Assembly: GCF_016864555.1 (NCBI RefSeq)
Contig: NZ_CP044011.1
Coordinates: 4,421,501-4,485,500, forward strand
Direction: 5' to 3'
From: Sinorhizobium sp. BG8
Lineage (GTDB): Bacteria > Pseudomonadota > Alphaproteobacteria > Rhizobiales > Rhizobiaceae
Length of the DNA: 64,000 bases
Both the position numbers and the translations under genes were made by a program. The notes under the pieces are model-generated. The model made no database searches. It was not told where the DNA came from and was given only the letters and a program-made list of their open reading frames with translations. Positions within the stretch are counted from its first letter, which is position 1. Every line of letters starts with the position of its first letter. This document shows, piece by piece, positions 27,608 to 59,109 of the stretch.

Positions 27608-27636
27608 TTGACAATTGTGCGCCGCAACATTAATCT
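27608..27636 (+). promoter_or_regulatory. Sigma-70-type promoter of the small RNA
   Basis: TTGACA (27608-27613), a 17-base spacer and TAATCT (27631-27636) form a near-consensus housekeeping promoter. It points at a short transcript and no protein gene. Confidence 0.8.
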
Positions 27637-27642
27637 TTTCTT

Positions 27643-27721
27643 ACAGTCACTCGTGGCTGTAAATACCCTCCTTGGGTGTTTCCTCCCTAGACTCAACCGC
27701 GCACACAGCGCGGTTTTTTTT
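27643..27721 (+). ncRNA. Trans-acting small RNA of about 79 nt, resembling the rhizobial alpha-r8/MmgR type
   Basis: Predicted from the promoter to the end of an eight-T terminator (ACCGCGC 27696-27702, GCGCGGT 27708-27714). Three stem-loops are seen: ACAGTCAC/GTGGCTGT (27643-27660), ACCC-TCCTT-GGGT (27665-27677), and the terminator. Two pyrimidine-rich, anti-Shine-Dalgarno stretches (CCCTCCTT and CCTCCCT at 27682-27688) are in loop or single-stranded positions, as expected for an RNA that blocks ribosome-binding sites with Hfq. The size and motifs recall MmgR (about 77 nt, linked to polyhydroxybutyrate control in Sinorhizobium meliloti). That family name is from memory and unverified; the RNA gene itself is well supported. 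Confidence 0.75.
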
Positions 27722-27754
27722 GCCGGTGATTGCGGGAAGCGAATGCTGGCGCGC

Positions 27755-47365: not shown

Positions 47366-48133
47366 ATGACCAAGCATCAAGGAAGATTTGTCTGGTACGA
47401 GCTCATGACCAGCGACATCAGCGCGGCCGAGAATTTCTACAAGTCGGTCGTGGGCTGGAGCGCCAAGGACGCAGGCATGCCGGACATGAAGTACACGATC
47501 GTTTCTGCGGGCGAACGGATGATTGCCGGCCTGATGACGACCCCGAAGGAGGCGGAAGGCATGCCGCCGGCCTGGATCGGCTACATCTATGCCGACGACG
47601 TGGACGCCACGGCGAAGGAGATCGCTGCCAAGGGTGGCAAGGTGCACCGCCAGCCGGACGACATTCCCAATATCGGTCGCTTCGCCGTGGTCGCAGACCC
47701 TCATGGTGCAATCTTTTCGATCTTCAGCTCGGCCAGCGAGGGCGAGCCCCCTGCCGATCCGATGTCCCCCGGCCATGTCGGCTGGCATGAGCTGATGGCC
47801 GGCGATCTCGAAAGCGCATGGAGCTTCTACGCCCAGCTCTTCGGCTGGACCAAGGACGAGGCACTCGACATGGGAGAGATGGGCACATACCAGCTCTTCA
47901 AGATCAACGACCAGACGGCAGGCGGCATGATGACCAAGCCGAAGGACCTGCCGGCACCGCCCTACTGGGGCTTCTATTTTACGGTCGATGCCATTGATTC
48001 GGCGATCGAGCGCGTCAATGCCGGTGGCGGCAAGGTGGTCATGGGGCCGATGGAAGTCCCCGGCGGCGCCTGGATCATCAACGGTGTCGACCCGCAGGGA
48101 GCCTATTTCTCGCTGGTAGCGCCGAAGCGCTGA
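47366..48133 (+). CDS. VOC-family protein with two glyoxalase-like domains
   Basis: A 255-residue protein with two tandem VOC (vicinal oxygen chelate) domains: about residues 4-120 (GRFVWYELMTSDISAAENFYKSVVGWS...ADPHGAIFSIFSS) and 130-255 (GHVGWHELMAGDLESAWSFYAQLFGWTKDEALDMGEMGTYQLFKIND). Such proteins can detoxify, isomerise or cleave small molecules and often bind a metal; function here unknown. It follows the DUF899 gene, possibly as a two-gene unit. The ATG 47366 is preceded by GGGAGA. Confidence 0.88.
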   Translation: MTKHQGRFVWYELMTSDISAAENFYKSVVGWSAKDAGMPDMKYTIVSAGERMIAGLMTTPKEAEGMPPAWIGYIYADDVDATAKEIAAKGGKVHRQPDDIPNIGRFAVVADPHGAIFSIFSSASEGEPPADPMSPGHVGWHELMAGDLESAWSFYAQLFGWTKDEALDMGEMGTYQLFKINDQTAGGMMTKPKDLPAPPYWGFYFTVDAIDSAIERVNAGGGKVVMGPMEVPGGAWIINGVDPQGAYFSLVAPKR

Positions 48134-48375
48134 TTGCTCGAAGGCCCGCGCCCGGCGCACCCATCCGGTGCCCGTGCGCGGGCCTCCGCGCGGCGGAGGC
48201 AGGTCGTTCGGCCCGCGTTGCCCGCCGTTGCGATCCATATCCCGCAGGCTGGCGCCCGCTCGACGGCGCGAAGATCCGAACGCTGTTCGCCATTCCTGCT
48301 TGCAATCCTTCTTTGCATTGCACAAACTTCCACGGATGGCGGCAAAGACCGTCACCGAGGGGATAAAAATCGCGC

Positions 48376-51300
48376 ATGTCGATAAAGGCCAGCATCTACC
48401 ACCTGACCCACTACAAGTATGACAACCCGGTCCGCCTCGGACCGCAGATCATAAGGCTGAAGCCGGCCGCCCATTCGAAGACCAAGGTCATAAGCCACTC
48501 ACTCAAGGTTTCGCCGGCAAATCACTTCGTCAATCTGCAGCAGGACCCCTACGGCAACTATCTTGCCCGATATGTTTTTCCTGATCCGGTGAGCGAACTG
48601 AAGATCGAGGTTGATCTCGTCGCCGACATGACGGTCTACAACCCCTTCGATTTCTTCGTCGAGGAGGAGCACGAAAACTGGCCCTTCAGCTATCCGCAGG
48701 AGCTGCGGGAAGACCTGATGATTTACACGCAGCCGGAGCCCATGGGGCCTGCGCTCGAAGCGTTCATGAAGACGATCGACAGGTCCCGCCAGCGGACCGT
48801 GGACATGGTGGTCGGCATCAATGCCCGCCTGCAGCACGACGTCGGCTACGTGATCCGCATGGAACCGGGCGTCCAGACGCCCGAGGAGACGCTGACCACG
48901 GCGCGCGGGTCCTGCCGTGACTCGAGCTGGCTGCTCGTCCAGGTGCTGCGCAATCTCGGCTATGCCGCCCGCTTCGTCTCAGGCTACCTCATCCAGCTCA
49001 CGCCCGACCTGAAGGCCCTCGACGGTCCCTCCGGTACCGAAGTGGATTTCACCGACCTCCATGCCTGGTGCGAGGTTTACATTCCGGGCGCCGGCTGGAT
49101 CGGGCTCGACCCTACCTCGGGCCTCCTGACCGGGGAGAGCCACATTCCCCTCGCCGCCACGCCGCACTACCGCAACGCTGCGCCGATATCGGGCGGCTAC
49201 TTCGGCCATGCCAACACCTCGTTCGATTTCGACATGAGAGTGACCCGGGTGGCCGAGCATCCGCGCATTACCAAGCCCTTTTCCGACGAATCCTGGGAGG
49301 CGCTGAACGCGCTTGGCAAGGACGTCGACCGCGTTCTCGCGAGCAACGACGTACGCCTCACCATGGGCGGAGAGCCCACCTTCGTCTCGGTCGACGACTT
49401 CGAATCCGGGGAATGGAACACCGATGCCGTGGGTCCGACCAAGCGCGAGAAGGCGGATACGCTGATCCGTCGCCTCAGGGAACGCTTCGCACCGGGCGGC
49501 TTCCTCCACTATGGACAAGGCAAGTGGTATCCGGGCGAAAGCCTTCCGCGCTGGACGTTCTCGCTCTACTGGCGCCGCGACGGCAAGCCGATCTGGTCCG
49601 ATCCGAAGCTCATCGCCGTGGAAGGCAAGTCCTCTCCGGTGACGACGGACGACGCGGAACGATTGCTCTCGGGAATGGCCGCCGAACTCGGCATCGCGAA
49701 GGAGATGGTCGTACCCGCCTTCGAGGATCCTGCCGAGTGGCTGATCAAGGAGGCCAACCTTCCCGACAACGTCGACCCGTCCAACTCGAAGCTCGAGGAT
49801 CCGGAGGAGCGGACCCGTATCGCCCGCGTCTTCGAACGTGGCCTCACCAGTCCGACCGGCTATGTTCTGCCCGTCCAGCGCTGGAACGCGCAGGCCAAGG
49901 ACGTACGCTGGATGAGTGAAAAATGGCGGACGCGTCGGGGGCGGATCTTCCTGGTGCCGGGCGACAGCCCCGTCGGCTACCGCCTGCCGCTCGGATCGCT
50001 GCCATGGGTTTCCGTCTCGGCCTATCCCTACATCAATCCGGTGGACCCGACGGTCGAGCGCCCCGAACTGCCTGATTTCACCGAGGAAAAGGGCCGGACC
50101 ATGGCGGCCGTGCACTTCCAGGCGGCGACCGGCCAGCAGCAGATTAACCCGCAAAGCACGGAAGAGATCGACGGCCATGTACGCACCGCCATCAGCGTCG
50201 AACCGCGCGAAGGCCGGCTGTGCGTGTTCATGCCGCCGACGACGAGCCTGGAAGAGTATCTGGACCTCATCGCATCCGCCGAGCGCGCCGCCGCGGCGCT
50301 GAAGCTGCCCGTCCACATCGAAGGCTATGCTCCGCCGCAGGACGAGCGCCTGAATGTCATCCGCGTGGCGCCGGATCCCGGAGTGATCGAGGTCAACATC
50401 CATCCGGCTTCGAACTGGCAGGAATGCGTCTCCATCACCTCGGCGGTCTATGAGGAGGCTCGCCAGAGCCGCCTCGGCGCCGACAAGTTCATGATCGACG
50501 GTCGCCACACGGGCACGGGCGGCGGCAACCACGTCGTCGTCGGCGGCAGGAACCCGAACGACAGCCCGTTCCTTCGCCGCCCTGATCTGCTCAAGAGCCT
50601 CGTCCTGCACTGGCAGCGCCATCCTTCGCTGTCCTATCTCTTCTCGGGCATGTTCATCGGCCCCACCAGCCAGGCACCGCGCATCGACGAAGCCCGTCAC
50701 GATTCGCTCTACGAGCTGGAGATCGCCCTTTCCCAGATCCCTGCCCCCGGCAAGGGCGCAGCACCCCTGCCGTGGCTGGTCGACCGGCTCTTCCGCAACC
50801 TGCTCGTGGACGTCACCGGCAACACCCACCGTTCCGAGATCTGCATCGACAAGCTGTTCTCGCCGGACGGCCCGACCGGTCGCCTCGGCCTTGTCGAGTT
50901 TCGTGGCTTCGAGATGCCGCCGAACGCGCGCATGAGCCTCGCCCAGCAGCTTCTCGTCCGCGCACTGATTGCGCGCTTCTGGCTGCAACCCGCCGACGGC
51001 AGGTTCGTTCGCTGGGGCACGACGCTGCACGACCGGTTCATGCTGCCTCACCATGTCTGGCAGGATTTCCTCGAGGTGCTTGCCGATCTGAAAACCAACG
51101 GCTTCGATTTCCGTCCCGAATGGTTCGAGGCCCAGCTGGAGTTCCGCTTCCCCTTCTGCGGCGAGGTCGAGTACGAGGGCGCCACGCTCGAACTGAGGCA
51201 AGCGCTGGAGCCCTGGCACGTGATGGGCGAGCAGGGAGCGATCGGCGGTACGGTCCGCTATGTCGATTCCTCTGTCGAAAGGCTGCAGGTAAAGCTAGAG

Positions 51301-51696
51301 TCCGCCAATCCCGGGCGCTATGCCGTTACGTGCAACGGGCGGCCGCTTCCTCTCGCCAGGACCGGCGCCAACGGCGTTTCGGTCGCAGGCGTCAGGTACA
51401 AGGCCTGGCAGCCCGCTTCCGGGCTCCATCCGGTTCTGCCCGTAAACACCCCGCTCACATTTGACATTTATGATACATGGTCGCGCCGGGCGATCGGCGG
51501 ATGCATTTATCACGTTGCCCATCCGGGTGGGCGCAACTATGAGACATTTCCGGTGAACGGAAATGAAGCGGAAGCGCGTCGGCTGGCGCGTTTCGAACCG
51601 TGGGGACATACGGCTGGCGGATATACGGTCTGGCCGGAGACACCATCTCCGGAATTTCCGTTGACGCTGGACCTTAGGCGCCCCGCAGGAGTGTAG
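48376..51696 (+). CDS. Transglutaminase-DUF2126 fusion protein
   Basis: A 1106-residue cytosolic protein. Residues 1-95 are the bacterial transglutaminase N-domain. Residues about 150-270 are the transglutaminase core with an intact triad: Cys180 (RGSCRDSSW), His229 (DLHAWCEVY) and Asp245 (GLDPTSG). The remaining ~780 residues are DUF2126 (COG4196), with [54 protein letters not shown] and [16 protein letters not shown] recall this region being described as a permuted glutamine-synthetase-like amide ligase fold. It heads a three-gene cluster with ATP-grasp/alpha-E and a second transglutaminase. Its stop is three bases before the next start. Predicted role: forming or editing amide bonds on a peptide or protein; no substrate is known. 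Confidence 0.92.
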
Positions 51697-51699
51697 GGA

Positions 51700-54114
51700 T
51701 TGACGAGAAAGGTCGCCGAGGCAGAGCGTTCCGGTACCGGGCTTTCTGGAAAGCCGGTAGACGGTTACGCGCCGCTGTCCGGCATTGCCGACGAGATGGT
51801 CGATACCAACGGCAGCGTCCGCCCCGTGTGGCGCCGCCTGCTTTCGGCGATCGAGAAGATGGACGAAACGGAACTTGCGAACCGCTTCGCCCGCGCCGAC
51901 CGCTACCTGAGGGATGCCGGCGTCTTCTATCGCGCTTACGGAGGCAAGGAATCGGGCGCCGAACGCGCCTGGCCGCTTTCGCATGTCCCGGTGCTGATCG
52001 ACGAAGCCGAATGGGAAAACCTGTCCCGCGGCATCATCCAGCGCGCCAATCTGCTCGAGATGATCGTCGCCGACATCTACGGCAAGAACAGGCTTGTGGC
52101 CGAGGGGCACCTGCCGCCGGCGCTGATCGCCTCGAATGCGGAGTTCCTGCGCCCGCTCGTCGGCGTCGCGCCCGCTGACGGCCATTTCCTCCATTTCTGT
52201 TCCTTCGAGATCGGCCGTGGCCCGGATGGGACATGGTGGGTCCTTTCCGACCGGACCCAGGCTCCGTCAGGCGCCGGTTTCGCGCTTGAGAACCGGGTGG
52301 CGACCACCCGCGCCTTCTCCGACATCTACGCCGAAACGCACGTGCACCGCCTCGCCGGCTTCTTCGGCGAGTTCCGCGAGACGTTGCAGGGCAACAAGCT
52401 GCATTCCGAGGATCGCATCGCCGTCCTGACGCCCGGCCTTGCGAACGAGACCTATTTCGAGCACGCCTATATCGCCCGCTACCTGGGCTTCATGCTTCTC
52501 GAAGGCGAGGACCTGACGGTCGTCGACGACAAGGTCATGGTCCGCACCGTTGCCGGCCTCAAGCCTGTGGGCGTGCTCTGGCGCCGCCTCGACGCGACGT
52601 TCGCCGATCCGCTCGAATTGAACCAGAACTCCCACATCGGCACGCCCGGCATGGTCGAGGCGCTGAGGGCGGGGTCCGTCAGCATCGTCAACGCGCTTGG
52701 CTCCGGCATACTCGAGACCCGTGCGCTGCTCGCCTTCATGCCCGGCATCTGCCGCCACCTGATGGGCGAAGACCAGATACTGCCGAGCATCGCCACCTGG
52801 TGGTGCGGCCAGAAGGCCGAACGCGAACATGTCGCCCGCAGCATCGAGAAGATGGTCATCGGGCCCGCCTACTCGACCCGTCCCTTCTTCGACGACAACG
52901 AGCAGTCGGTGCTCGGCTCGTCGCTGACGGACAACGCGAAGGTCTCGATTTCCGATTGGCTCGCCGCCGACGGAGCCAAGCTCGTCGGCCAGGAAGCGGT
53001 GACGCTGTCCACCACGCCGGCCTTCGTGAACGGCAAGCTGGTTCCGCGACCGATGAGCCTCCGTGTCTTCGCGGCGCGCACGCGCGACGGCTGGCAGATC
53101 ATGCCCGGCGGCTTCGCGCGCATAGGCGCGGACAACAACGTCTCCGCCATCGCCATGCAGAAGGGCGGCTCGGCGGCGGACGTCTGGATCGTCAGCTCCA
53201 AGCCGGTCGCCCGCACCACGCTTCTCCCGGCCGAGGAAACCTTTACCCGCAACATGCCGGGAAGCCTGCCGAGCCGGGCAGCGGACAATCTCTACTGGCT
53301 CGGTCGCTACATCGAGCGCGCCGAGGGGGCGCTGCGCATCCTGCGCGCCTGGCACGGCCGGTTCGCTGAGTACGCGGACCCGGAACAGCCGCTCCTGAAG
53401 GACGTCAGCACCTATCTCGACGTGCTGGATATCGACACCGCCGAAGCGGTTCCGAGCAGCCTGATACGCAACATCGAAAGCGCGGTGTTCAGCGCCAGCA
53501 ACATCCGCGACCGCTTCTCGCCCGACGGCTGGCTGGCCCTTACCGATCTTTCCAAGACCGCACGTCGCTTCCACGTCAGCGTCGAGGCTGGCGACGACGC
53601 GACGCGGGCGATGACCGTGCTGCTCAGGAAGCTTGCGGGCTTTGCCGGTCTCGTCCACGAAAACATGTACCGGTTCACCGGCTGGCGCTTCCTGTCGATC
53701 GGACGCTATCTCGAGCGCGGACTGCATATGACGCGCCTGCTTGGCCACATGTCTGGCGAGGATGCACCGGATGGCGCGCTGGACATGCTTCTTGAGATCG
53801 GCGACAGCGTCATGACGCACCGCAGGCGCTACAACGTCGCCACCGCGCGCCTCACCGTGACCGATCTTCTCGCACTCGATCCGCTCAATCCTCGCTCCGT
53901 GCTCTATCAGCTGAACGAGATCAAGAACGAGGTCGAGCAACTGCCGAACGCCTTCTCCAACGGACAGATGTCGCCCTTCTACCGCGAGGCCATGAGGCTG
54001 CATGCGGGCCTTGCGGTCATGACGCCCGAAGGCATGTCGGGCCCGATCTACAAACGGTTCGAACAGGAACTGGAAAAGCTTTCCGACGTTCTCGGCCAGA
54101 CCTATCTGAGTTGA
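51700..54114 (+). CDS. Circularly permuted ATP-grasp protein fused to alpha-E domain
   Basis: An 804-residue protein from TTG 51700, which follows the previous stop by three bases and AGGAG by about eight. Residues about 65-500 are the circularly permuted ATP-grasp ligase (DUF404/DUF407 types: VFYRAYGGKESGAERAWPLSHVPVLI, IIQRANLLEMIVADIYGKN, LTPGLANETYFEHAYIARYLGFMLLEGEDL, ARPMSLR-type end). Residues about 525-800 are the alpha-E all-helical domain (ADNLYWLGRYIERAEGALRILRAW ... ENMYRFTGWRFLSIGRYLERGLHMTRLLGHM). In many bacteria these are separate proteins; here they are fused. ATP-grasp enzymes join carboxylates to amines through acyl-phosphates. It is tightly linked to both flanking transglutaminase genes. 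Confidence 0.93.
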   Translation: MTRKVAEAERSGTGLSGKPVDGYAPLSGIADEMVDTNGSVRPVWRRLLSAIEKMDETELANRFARADRYLRDAGVFYRAYGGKESGAERAWPLSHVPVLIDEAEWENLSRGIIQRANLLEMIVADIYGKNRLVAEGHLPPALIASNAEFLRPLVGVAPADGHFLHFCSFEIGRGPDGTWWVLSDRTQAPSGAGFALENRVATTRAFSDIYAETHVHRLAGFFGEFRETLQGNKLHSEDRIAVLTPGLANETYFEHAYIARYLGFMLLEGEDLTVVDDKVMVRTVAGLKPVGVLWRRLDATFADPLELNQNSHIGTPGMVEALRAGSVSIVNALGSGILETRALLAFMPGICRHLMGEDQILPSIATWWCGQKAEREHVARSIEKMVIGPAYSTRPFFDDNEQSVLGSSLTDNAKVSISDWLAADGAKLVGQEAVTLSTTPAFVNGKLVPRPMSLRVFAARTRDGWQIMPGGFARIGADNNVSAIAMQKGGSAADVWIVSSKPVARTTLLPAEETFTRNMPGSLPSRAADNLYWLGRYIERAEGALRILRAWHGRFAEYADPEQPLLKDVSTYLDVLDIDTAEAVPSSLIRNIESAVFSASNIRDRFSPDGWLALTDLSKTARRFHVSVEAGDDATRAMTVLLRKLAGFAGLVHENMYRFTGWRFLSIGRYLERGLHMTRLLGHMSGEDAPDGALDMLLEIGDSVMTHRRRYNVATARLTVTDLLALDPLNPRSVLYQLNEIKNEVEQLPNAFSNGQMSPFYREAMRLHAGLAVMTPEGMSGPIYKRFEQELEKLSDVLGQTYLS

Positions 54115-54179
54115 GCCGAGAGAACCCAGACGGACACTGACCCGCCCAATCTACCTCACGAGGGACACGCATTCCGCCC

Positions 54180-55067
54180 ATGCTTTACGATGTCACCCTC
54201 CGGATCGAATACGTCTATGACACGCCGGTTTCCGGCGGACGCCACATGGTGCGCGTTCTCCCGCTCTCGATCGGCGGTCGCCAGAGGCTCGTTGCAGGAT
54301 CGATCGACGTCATGCCGCGGCCGATCGAACGCACCAACGTGACGGACTTCTTCGACAATCCCGCCATGTCGATCCTCTTCCGCAGCGTACATGACCGGCT
54401 CGACATCAAGATGCAGGCGCGCGTCCACGTCGACGGCCAGGATCCGACACCCGACTTCTCGCCGCAGCTTGATGGCCTTCCCGACGACATCGTGAGCTAC
54501 TGGTCGCTCGACGCCGGTTCTCCCCACCACTATGTCGGCCCAAGTCCTCGCCTTCCCCACTGCCCCGAGATTGCCGAGTATGCGAGCCGGTTCGTCACCC
54601 CGGACATGACGGTGCGTGAAATCGCAAAGGCCATCTGCGCCGGCATCCACAAGGACTTCACCTACGATGCGAAGGCCACCACCGTGGACACGACGCCGCG
54701 CGAATCCTTCAAGCTGAAGCGTGGCGTCTGCCAGGACTTCACCCATGTCATGATCGTCGCGTTGCGCAGTCTCGGCATCCCGGCCGGATATGTCAGCGGT
54801 TTCCTGCGCACGATCCCGCCACCCGGCAAGGAACGGCTGGAAGGAGCCGACGCGATGCACGCATGGGTGCGTTTCTGGGGCGGGCGGATCAACGGCTGGA
54901 TGGAGCTCGATCCCACCAACAACATTCCCGCCGGAACGGACCACATCGTGGTCGGCTACGGCCGCGACTATTCCGACGTGGCGCCGGTGATCGGCATCCT
55001 GAAGGGATACGGCCGCCACAAAACGGATCAGGCCGTGGACGTCGTACCCGTTCATCAGTTCGCGTGA
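54180..55067 (+). CDS. Transglutaminase-like protein, second of the cluster
   Basis: A 295-residue cytosolic protein: bacterial transglutaminase N-domain (residues about 1-85) and the transglutaminase core with Cys184 (RGVCQDFTH), His227 (DAMHAWVRFW) and Asp244 (ELDPTNN), so it is probably an active cysteine peptidase or acyltransferase. It lies 65 bases after the ATP-grasp/alpha-E gene. In related clusters an Ntn-hydrolase (Anbu-type) peptidase commonly follows; here the next gene is an unrelated TadG-like protein, and no such peptidase is in the rest of the window. Confidence 0.92.
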   Translation: MLYDVTLRIEYVYDTPVSGGRHMVRVLPLSIGGRQRLVAGSIDVMPRPIERTNVTDFFDNPAMSILFRSVHDRLDIKMQARVHVDGQDPTPDFSPQLDGLPDDIVSYWSLDAGSPHHYVGPSPRLPHCPEIAEYASRFVTPDMTVREIAKAICAGIHKDFTYDAKATTVDTTPRESFKLKRGVCQDFTHVMIVALRSLGIPAGYVSGFLRTIPPPGKERLEGADAMHAWVRFWGGRINGWMELDPTNNIPAGTDHIVVGYGRDYSDVAPVIGILKGYGRHKTDQAVDVVPVHQFA

Positions 55068-55227
55068 GGGCGGGATTCCCGAATGTAAACAGCCTGGGTG
55101 ACCCTCAAAGTGCCGAAAATTCGGCATTGGTGCAATTTTACTAAAACTACACCACCCGGTAGAACCGATAAATAAGAGTTCGCTGCTACTTTCCCCCCAA
55201 CATTATGACAATGGGTGGGTAAGTCAG

Positions 55228-56444
55228 ATGAGTGACAACAGGCAACGGCAGGCATCTTTCCTGAAACTCTACAAGGACCGTCTCGGCAATTTCTCCATGC
55301 TGACGGCGCTCGTCCTGCCGGTCCTGCTGGGGCCGGCGGCGTCGCGATCGACCTGACCGGCATGATCCGGACCAAGGCCAACCTCCAGGACGCAACGGAC
55401 GCTGCCGCACTTGCAGCCGCCGCCGCGATGACCAAGCAGGGCTTCACCGCGGAAGCGGCAAAGCTCCTGGCGATGAACTTCCTAAAGACGCAGATGGGTA
55501 GCACCAACAGCGTCGACGGGGAGGACGAGGCAAAAGGTGACGGCGGCAGCGACATCGACTCCAACTCGTCCGTCACCGTTACCGAAACCGCCCTTGAAGG
55601 CGGCGGCAAATCCTACAAGGTCGAGGTCAGCGCCAAGTACGACTTCATTTTCAATCCGTTGACCCAGCTCTTCGGCCAGGAGTCGACGACGCTGAACGCC
55701 GAAAGCACGGCCGAAAGCGGCACCGAATCGAAGAACGCGCTTTCGATGTACTTCGTGCTCGACCGTTCCGGCTCCATGGCTGAGGATACGTCCACGAAGA
55801 CGACCTACACCTGCTACGACAAGAAGGGCAACGCGAAGACCTGCACGGGCTATCTGACCAAGATGGAATCCCTGAAGCTGGCGACCGCCGACCTTCTCAC
55901 GCAGATGAAGACGGCAGACCCGACGGAGACCTACGTTCGCACGGCGGCGATCTCCTACAACTCCGCCGCCCAGACACCCACGGCCTTCGCCTGGGGCACG
56001 TCCGGCGTGCTGTCCTACGTGAATGCGCTTACCGCATCCGGCAATACGGACTCCTCGACCCCGTTCAAGACGGCCTACCAGACGCTCGCGACAACGGCTG
56101 AGGATACCGCGCACAAGAACAAGGCGAACAACGGCCAGGTGCCGACGAAGTACATCGTCTTCATGACGGACGGTGACAACACGTCGTACAACGGCAGCTC
56201 CAGCGGCAGTGCCGGGACCTCGGCCGACACCGAAACCAAGAAGTGGTGCGACAAGGCCAGGACCGACAAGATGGAGGTCTACACGATCGCCTTCATGGCA
56301 CCGACCCGCGGCCAGACCCTTCTGAAGTATTGCGCCACCACCACGAGCCACTACTTCGCGGCGGAAAGCGCGACCGACCTGATCGCCGCCTTCAAATATA
56401 TCGGCCAGCAGAGCTCCGCAGTCGTCGCCCGCCTGACGAAATAG
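55228..56444 (+). pseudogene. TadG-like pilus-assembly/von Willebrand A protein, broken by a one-base frameshift
   Basis: Frame one from ATG 55228 encodes MSDNRQRQASFLKLYKDR then FSMLTALVLPVLLG, the N-terminus and membrane helix of Tad-like pilus proteins, but stops soon after. The expected continuation GVAIDLTGMIRTKANLQDATDAAALAAA is in another frame, reached by adding one G to the GGGG run at 55329-55332. The rest (from about 55333) is open to 56444. It contains a von Willebrand A domain with a complete MIDAS motif (DRSGSMA) and TDGD. Corrected, it would be ~405 residues. Upstream at 55111-55126 is a TGCCGAA-AA-TTCGGCA dyad. Either a real mutation, a phase-variable run, or a sequencing error. 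A downstream restart at 55362 would lack the membrane anchor. Confidence 0.85.
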
Positions 56445-56470
56445 CGGTTCCGAAACAGCAATTCACGATC

Positions 56471-56500
56471 AGCCCCGCTTCGCGCCGCGAAGCGGGGCTT
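56471..56500 (+). terminator. Terminator after the TadG-like gene
   Basis: AGCCCCGCTTCGC (56471-56483) and GCGAAGCGGGGCT (56487-56499) form a 13-base stem with a three-base loop followed by TTTGC. A short T-run makes it moderately strong. Confidence 0.75.
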
Positions 56501-56647
56501 TGCATTTCAGGGCTTTTGCCCGTACTTCCGACAGACGCTCAGTTAATGAAAATGGTATATTGCAAGCGCTTCGGATAGATGCATAAATCGGACCGTGGAT
56601 TGATTTTCATGAAGCCGATCAAGAATTAAAGGGGATAGCGTCCTGCT

Positions 56648-59109
<2,462 letters not shown>

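Follow-up and report, generated by a model that had tools for sequence, protein, structure and literature searches.

We analyzed a 64,000-nucleotide stretch of the genome of Sinorhizobium sp. BG8 (NZ_CP044011.1, 4,421,501 to 4,485,500, forward strand; hereafter "the window," to which all positions below refer), and found that its three-gene cluster of transglutaminase, DUF2126, ATP-grasp, and alpha-E domains is preceded by a match to the operator of PhaR (AniA), and that one of the two ligases proposed for this cluster lacks residues that are kept in all of the stand-alone relatives examined. This kind of gene cluster is already known and common, and the BG8 form is a variant of it. The reading that we favor, and to which we attach a reasonable though not a high probability, combines three elements: the PhaR operator match, induction under carbon-rich and nitrogen-short conditions, and a fusion of a transglutaminase with a predicted amidoligase next to a predicted inactive ATP-grasp. 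The cluster is, most likely, an amide-bond system for times of carbon surplus and nitrogen shortage.

All three genes lie on the forward strand. Gene 1 (48376 to 51696, 1106 amino acids) encodes a transglutaminase-DUF2126 fusion (Pfam PF08379, PF01841, and PF09899), gene 2 (51700 to 54114, 804 amino acids) a degenerate ATP-grasp fused to alpha-E (PF14403/PF04174 and PF04168), and gene 3 (54180 to 55067, 295 amino acids) a second transglutaminase-like protein (PF08379 and PF01841). An initial annotation of this DNA had described three open reading frames (ORFs) with gaps of 3 and 65 bases, and we recovered the same coordinates and strand; the transglutaminase, DUF2126, ATP-grasp, and alpha-E families that it had assigned were all matched in a Pfam profile search of the three proteins, while NCBIfam returned zero matches for them. 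Alpha-E, permuted ATP-grasp, and Bact_transglu_N/core proteins are encoded together, which is the combination that marks the proposed kind of amide-ligation cluster. The 3-base spacing between genes 1 and 2 hinges on the choice of the gene 2 start codon, a TTG, because a database copy of this protein (P0123, 772 amino acids) begins 32 residues further in; the homologs of gene 2 are mostly ~800 amino acids long among the matches listed. The BG8 genome (5.67 Mb, two contigs) contains a single DUF2126 gene.

The DUF2126 part of gene 1 is strongly conserved. Its Pfam match reached 1349 bits and spanned nearly all of the 826-position model, and the motif residues E333, E672, N674, H719, E841, R843, and E846 were each invariant in 100 of 100 sequences, as were nearly all of the DUF2126 residues that we checked in the alignment. 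We take the invariant acidic, histidine, and arginine residues to be the counterparts of glutamine synthetase (GS) residues. In the fold comparison, residues 298 to 928 gave weak matches to the GS fold, among them gamma-glutamylmethylamide synthetase, and a profile search of solved structures with a 55-sequence alignment returned transglutaminases only. The catalytic triads that had been called intact were confirmed for both transglutaminases: Cys180/His229/Asp245 of gene 1 did not vary among 100 aligned sequences, the one from the window included, and all 129 aligned sequences of gene 3 have Cys184/His227/Asp244. Judged from these alignments, DUF2126 is the only one of the two proposed ligases in the cluster that retains its motif residues, and we predict it to be a GS-like enzyme with ligase activity.

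The claim of intact catalytic residues was not confirmed, however, for the ATP-grasp half of gene 2. This protein matched the permuted ATP-grasp family PF14403 with 460 bits, and its structure model (mean predicted local distance difference test score, pLDDT, of 77.5) keeps the fold, the nearest structure being 3n6x, a putative glutathionylspermidine synthase from Methylobacillus and, among solved structures, the closest relative of this half (E-value 1.8e-66; TM score 0.86 by target), followed by glutathione synthetases and glutathionylspermidine synthetase. We compared, in one alignment, 91 fused ATP-grasp-alpha-E proteins, that of the window among them, and 52 stand-alone ATP-grasps of the sampled loci. 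All 52 stand-alone proteins carry E at the column of window residue 183, N at that of 185, K at that of 388, and G at that of 394, whereas E183 and N185 occur in 0 of the 91 fused copies (90 of which have R at position 185) and K388 in only 9, the lysine being gone in the other 82. In the fused copies, the glycine-rich loop is swapped for other sequence, and many have a small insertion. The window protein shows S183, R185, Q187, and G388 where its stand-alone relatives carry E, N, R, and K, and it lacks all three marks of the stand-alone members, namely the E-x-N pair, the lysine, and the glycine loop. Unlike the window protein, 3n6x retains the E-x-N pair, the lysine, and the glycine loop; its segments VLEDNLRTPSG and VVKEVQGSGGYGML correspond to VLSDRTQAPSG and VIGPAYSTRPFF in the window. 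The counterparts of these residues in glutathione synthetases serve in magnesium binding (the E-x-N pair) and in ATP binding (the lysine and the glycine loop). Because residues that are kept by every stand-alone relative examined are lost, we predict that the ATP-grasp half is inactive as a ligase, that is, a pseudo-enzyme across all sampled fused copies including that of BG8. The stand-alone ATP-grasp of a Yersinia Anbu operon is reported to free phosphate from ATP (PMC6376114), which fits this picture.

These losses bear directly on the scheme of the initial annotation, in which a peptide or tag is assembled by the ATP-grasp and DUF2126 of the cluster, with alpha-E as the carrier of the intermediate and with transglutaminases that put the peptide or tag on or take it off. 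The family assignments and the link to the published amide-ligation proposal survive, and both the domain content and the published proposal for the alpha-E/ATP-grasp/transglutaminase/Anbu operon speak for such a scheme. A share of the ATP-grasp in peptide building is not supported, with the E-x-N pair missing from every fused copy and the lysine from all but a few. In addition, no substrate, tag, or peptide turned up, although no systematic search for tags or short ORFs was made. Taken as a whole, we find this scheme improbable.

Upstream of gene 1, column conservation across 22 loci and the window delineated a predicted promoter (48299 to 48328, forward strand) consisting of CTTGCA (48299 to 48304) and CAAACT (48323 to 48328), blocks that we infer to be -35-like and -10-like, respectively; a plain sigma-70 consensus scan of 48100 to 56700 gave no match. 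Within this promoter lies a predicted PhaR/AniA-type operator, CTTCTTTGCATTGCACAAACT (48308 to 48328, forward strand, 20.1 bits), with its core TGCATTGCA (48314 to 48322) located between the two boxes and its end located 47 bp 5′ of the gene 1 start codon. The matrix used for scoring was built from 16 efficiently bound Sinorhizobium meliloti sites (PMC12542648, Table 3; four exoH sites and weakly bound sites excluded), which themselves score 17.6 to 29.7 bits. Scanning the full 64 kb yielded just two sites above 10 bits, of which the one at gene 1 was the best, the other being at 27612 to 27632 (19.8 bits), and the next-best match reached 9.2 bits. The second site precedes mmgR (27658 to 27728; Rfam RF00519, 56 bits), whose promoter is listed among those bound by PhaR in S. 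meliloti (PMC12542648). It is an unplanned positive control of partial independence, because the matrix itself includes the mmgR site of S. meliloti; it also adjoins a TTGACA-like box and resembles the published S. meliloti mmgR site. Elsewhere in the BG8 genome, phaR is present and its locus contains a 12.4-bit site, the phasin genes have paired sites (30.2 and 18.5 bits upstream of one gene, 13.4 and 12.4 bits upstream of the second), and the composite pattern occurs once, while the reversed pattern occurs zero times.

The operator match is a recurrent feature of related clusters. In 80 related loci (1.45 Mb; about 67 to 85% identity), we found 57 PhaR-like sites of at least 12 bits, 19 of them elsewhere than upstream of the transglutaminase-DUF2126 gene. 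A site within 150 bp upstream of that gene was present in 38 of the 80 loci, against 0.16 loci expected, and eight column-permuted matrices gave 1, 0, 0, 0, 0, 0, 0, and 0. Rhizobiaceae-type named loci had the site in 22 of 26 cases, and the conserved upstream block in 22 loci and the window runs from CTTGC[AT]TTCT through to the -10-like box. We also sampled 249 Pseudomonadota genomes, 75 of which contain DUF2126, and read the promoters in 50 of these 75 (30 + 20 loci): All 11 cluster-bearing genomes of the own family had the site, versus 2 of 39 outside it (G215 and G238). In the latter, a 2.1-Mb genome from a different family of the phylum, the PhaR-like site (14.7 bits, locus L126) lies 53 bp upstream of the transglutaminase-DUF2126 gene, and it is possibly an independent recruitment. 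Going by the site match, the BG8 gene cluster is likely under the control of this predicted PhaR (AniA) operator.

An alternative is that the motif is no PhaR operator but simply conserved promoter sequence, or that it serves a different regulator. The conserved block is indeed largely made up of the -35-like and -10-like sequences, and the operator is a predicted one. Yet the 38 sites comprise 12 core variants, of which 10 fit YGCRNYGCR and the remaining two (TGCTGTGCA and TGCACTGGA) occur in one locus each, and in the Mesorhizobium-type loci the PhaR-like site differs in both position and flanks. Moreover, the same matrix picks out the mmgR and phasin promoters of BG8, and its permuted versions yield almost nothing. 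We consider this alternative unlikely.

Sigma-54 control of the BG8 cluster, an idea that arises from the Burkholderia and Pseudomonas literature, was considered and rejected. Using a matrix whose weights approximate the consensus, we obtained at best 1.5 to 2.0 bits for a -24/-12 box 5′ of gene 1, versus 14 to 18 bits in box-bearing relatives. The 80 related loci were not enriched in such boxes either: in 9 of them, an equal score was reached by no more than 2 of 40 random pieces, and the mean rank was 19 of 40. The one strong exception is L076, which has a sigma-54 box of 18.1 bits at a distance of 81 bp upstream, next to an Anbu module. Farther away, among 20 more distant loci (L119 to L138), a box of at least 14 bits was present before a module in 10 (7 before transglutaminase-DUF2126 and 3 before an unfused ATP-grasp), with five of these ten loci belonging to one family. 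Unfused modules had a sigma-54 box of at least 13 bits in 14 of 41 cases, against a promoter background of 0.008 per 260 bp. Across the 50 loci, seven boxes of at least 13 bits were found, none of them together with a PhaR site (which 13 of the 50 have).

Published expression data agree with the sigma-54 boxes that we found before modules in other lineages. In an ntrC mutant of Burkholderia cenocepacia, the genes I35_5080-5083, annotated as DUF404/407, DUF403, transglutaminase, and large transglutaminase protein, drop by 6.0 to 9.4 log2 units (PMC5491218). In Pseudomonas putida, PP_2685 and PP_2688 rise by ~4 log2 units on nitrate, and a promoter fusion of PP_2688 responds to nitrogen limitation (PMC8050072), under which PP_2686-2688 are up 11- to 37-fold (PMC7801951). 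Domains of these families are tied to urea genes in marine metagenomes (PMC3597751), and the S. meliloti phasin genes go up under nitrogen limitation (PMC5596199). Sigma-54/NtrC appears to replace PhaR in some other lineages, which would point to a similar physiological state.

The nitrogen response also raises the option of nitrogen salvage, where DUF2126 would join a carboxylate with an amine or an amino acid, in the manner of gamma-glutamyl-amide synthetases, and the transglutaminases would free the product. The cluster genes of relatives respond together with urea and nitrate genes, gamma-glutamylmethylamide synthetase is among the weak fold matches, and ligase-family and cysteine-enzyme domains share one polypeptide. 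But these fold matches are weak, and neither the three genes nor their Pfam-identified close neighbors include a transporter, an amine oxidase, or a dehydrogenase, so that we regard salvage in this specific form as a rather doubtful explanation.

The genomic distribution of the families connects the DUF2126 cluster to a wider set of modules. Of the 249 genomes, 145 contain alpha-E and 98 contain Anbu; alpha-E was found in all 75 DUF2126 genomes versus 70 of the 174 others (Fisher 6e-23, phylogeny ignored) and in 96 of the 98 Anbu genomes. In L055, L076, and L082, the DUF2126 module lies beside an Anbu module (unfused ATP-grasp and alpha-E, plus Anbu), and in 9 of the 20 more distant loci, Anbu or an extra unfused ATP-grasp or alpha-E adjoins. 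This adjacency of DUF2126 modules and unfused or Anbu modules supports the prediction of one common pathway. BG8 has a second module of its own on contig 1 near 4,054,600 to 4,058,000 (L139, 7576 to 10984), which comprises an ATP-grasp with intact motifs, an alpha-E, and a transglutaminase.

Given this association, one may think of a pupylation-like turnover, in which a GS-like DUF2126 attaches a tag or peptide to proteins during nitrogen starvation and Anbu degrades them. Hints of a GS-like fold, Anbu adjoining DUF2126 in several genomes, nitrogen-starvation control of relatives, and an Anbu crystal study that leans to protein degradation all fit with it. BG8 itself does not, as its genome lacks Anbu and has hslV, beside hslU, as its sole proteasome-family gene, which rules out Anbu as a necessary partner there. 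Furthermore, DUF2126 and Anbu are independent of each other among the alpha-E genomes (both in 47, DUF2126 only in 28, Anbu only in 49, neither in 21; p 0.38, phylogeny ignored), and the Anbu protein YbAnbu is reported to have shown neither peptidase activity nor a stable complex with the operon proteins. We deem such turnover quite unlikely.

In the reading that we favor, PHB (polyhydroxybutyrate) would accumulate and titrate PhaR, upon which the operator at the -10-like box would become free and the three proteins would be made. Because the promoter matches the operator of PhaR, which is titrated by PHB granules, the cluster is likely on when carbon is plentiful and nitrogen is scarce. DUF2126, as a putative GS-like carboxylate-amine ligase, would be the sole ATP-driven ligase of the cluster, the same type of amide would be the target of cleavage or transfer by the transglutaminase domain of gene 1 and by the second transglutaminase, and the ATP-grasp-alpha-E fusion would act as a non-catalytic partner. 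The intact ATP-grasp, the alpha-E, and the transglutaminase of the second module could act in the same pathway, and the substrate would probably be a nitrogen-bearing small molecule or peptide. The anatomy of the cluster argues for a GS-like ligase and a cysteine amidohydrolase/transferase in one chain, accompanied by a second cysteine enzyme and by an ATP-grasp-alpha-E partner that is presumably dead, and such a ligase may serve nitrogen salvage, a small storage peptide, or protein conjugation. As a bolder and clearly tentative extension, the system might be a granule-controlled conjugation and release of nitrogen compounds or protein tags by the GS-like ligase and its fused transglutaminase, held by a dead partner descended from the live ATP-grasp of the second module, and each lineage might have coupled it to its own sensor of carbon surplus and nitrogen shortage, PhaR in one family and NtrC/sigma-54 in others.

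A number of observations weigh against this reading. On the side of the proteins, the DUF2126 structure model is only fair (mean pLDDT 68) with a best GS match of E-value 0.056 in Foldseek, and the ATP- and magnesium-binding role ascribed to the lost ATP-grasp residues is carried over from glutathione synthetases. On the side of the promoter, the related promoters are not independent, such that 38 of 80 is too high as a count of events, and the conserved block is partly promoter-like sequence, not operator. Four of the 26 named Rhizobiaceae-type loci (L021, L023, L035, and L079) lack the site; it is rare outside the family, where many cluster-bearing alphaproteobacteria have neither a PhaR site nor a sigma-54 box; and oddly placed PhaR-like matches of at least 12 bits appeared in 5 of the 20 distant loci in a wider scan (L119, L122, L126, L127, and L135). 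At the second module, a PhaR-like site (12.5 bits) is present in BG8 alone, 1 of 41 loci, which led us to discard PhaR control of the unfused module as a conserved feature and leaves joint control of the two modules unsupported. The cluster is not recognizable in the published S. meliloti PhaR site table, and the main text of that paper, whose long protein table was covered in part, never uses the word transglutaminase (PMC12542648). From the P. putida data, the promoter fusion of the Anbu gene PP_2685 does not respond to nitrogen limitation (PMC8050072), the gene is up only 1.1- to 4.8-fold and hardly so in the wild type, and PP_2686-2688 also rise in the column that we took to be the rpoN mutant, a misfit with strict sigma-54 control (PMC7801951). 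Finally, the lack of Anbu in BG8 departs from the operons with which the cluster shares its families.

These likenesses and differences place the BG8 cluster among known systems. The operon of alpha-E, permuted ATP-grasp, transglutaminase, and Anbu goes back to an amidoligase proposal of 2009 (taken here from PMC5666114, PMC6376114, and PMC3597751). The BG8 cluster shares its protein families, DUF2126 occurred only in alpha-E genomes of the sample, and the two kinds of module adjoin in several of them; in contrast to that operon, BG8 has its ATP-grasp fused to alpha-E and degenerate, adds a transglutaminase-DUF2126 protein, and has a PhaR-type instead of a sigma-54 promoter. The clustered B. 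cenocepacia genes I35_5080-5083 encode the same set of DUF404/407, DUF403, transglutaminase, and large transglutaminase proteins, the last of which we infer from its name to be of the DUF2126 type, but they are under NtrC control and have ATP-grasp and alpha-E as separate genes (PMC5491218). With the S. meliloti PhaR (AniA) regulon, BG8 shares the YGCRNYGCR core between or beside promoter boxes as well as the mmgR and phasin sites, whereas the cluster is not recognizable in the site table of that regulon (PMC12542648); an "ATP-grasp domain-containing protein," SMb21227, is listed there as PhaR-repressed (2.81). Compared to glutamine synthetases and gamma-glutamylmethylamide synthetase, the gene 1 protein has ~10% identity, is far larger, and has an N-terminal transglutaminase.

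Our literature searches found nothing that settles the function of the cluster, and, with most subscription journals not searchable, no paper that joins DUF2126 with PhaR or reports a degenerate ATP-grasp. A search on DUF2126 matched no paper, PhaR combined with transglutaminase brought up, in the 10 of 54 matches listed, nothing but reviews on polymers, drugs, and materials, and a Bradyrhizobium PhaR paper contained none of the terms tried. The promoter, which the initial annotation had not described, is the best clue to the timing at which the system acts, and a link between storage granules and an amide ligase would join two fields that we found unconnected in the literature searched. The likely inducing state, PHB build-up with nitrogen shortage, can guide the choice of medium, mutant (phaR, phbC), and metabolome. 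With one supposed ligase probably dead, attention shifts to the protein worth assaying, and the degenerate partner would provide a natural inactive control.

The neighborhood of the cluster is variable. Among the 80 related loci, genes 1 and 2 are adjacent in 70 and all three genes are in order in 57, counts that come from a crude gene caller that missed some genes (for example, in L047, L051, L061, and L071), so that absences in them are uninformative. In BG8, ilvD and a DUF899 gene are found on the 5′ side, along with a VOC-like gene near 47371, and on the 3′ side follow a VWA gene (55362 to 56444) and the glycogen genes glgP-glgB (Pfam/NCBIfam). A strong terminator-like hairpin 3′ of the VWA gene (56471 to 56499) sets that gene apart from the glycogen genes. 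Since glgP lies 3′ of the cluster in 24 of the 80 loci only and neighbors vary outside one family, we took this arrangement as synteny and set aside a functional tie to the glycogen genes. In Rhizobium alvei (L020, position 16069), a 19.3-bit PhaR-like site is centered 35 bp 5′ of an 846-amino acid ORF, an apparent glgP, hinting at PHB control of glycogen phosphorylase in that species. Pairs of PhaR-like sites, scoring up to 25.0 and 21.4 bits and spaced by 28 bp, were also seen at or 5′ of the start of a minus-strand gene in L013 (731 to 780), L014 (967 to 1015), and L029 (752 to 800).

The top-scoring named relatives among the matches listed were chiefly from Shinella, Sinorhizobium/Ensifer, and Rhizobium, at 81 to 87% identity. 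Enemella evansiae is an actinobacterium, and a record under this name (L077) holds a transglutaminase-DUF2126 cluster of identical gene order at ~70% identity, which would reflect either horizontal transfer or contamination. Several Rhizobiaceae DUF2126 proteins (P0041, P0071, and P0109) are labeled "IMP dehydrogenase" in public records, an apparent misannotation.

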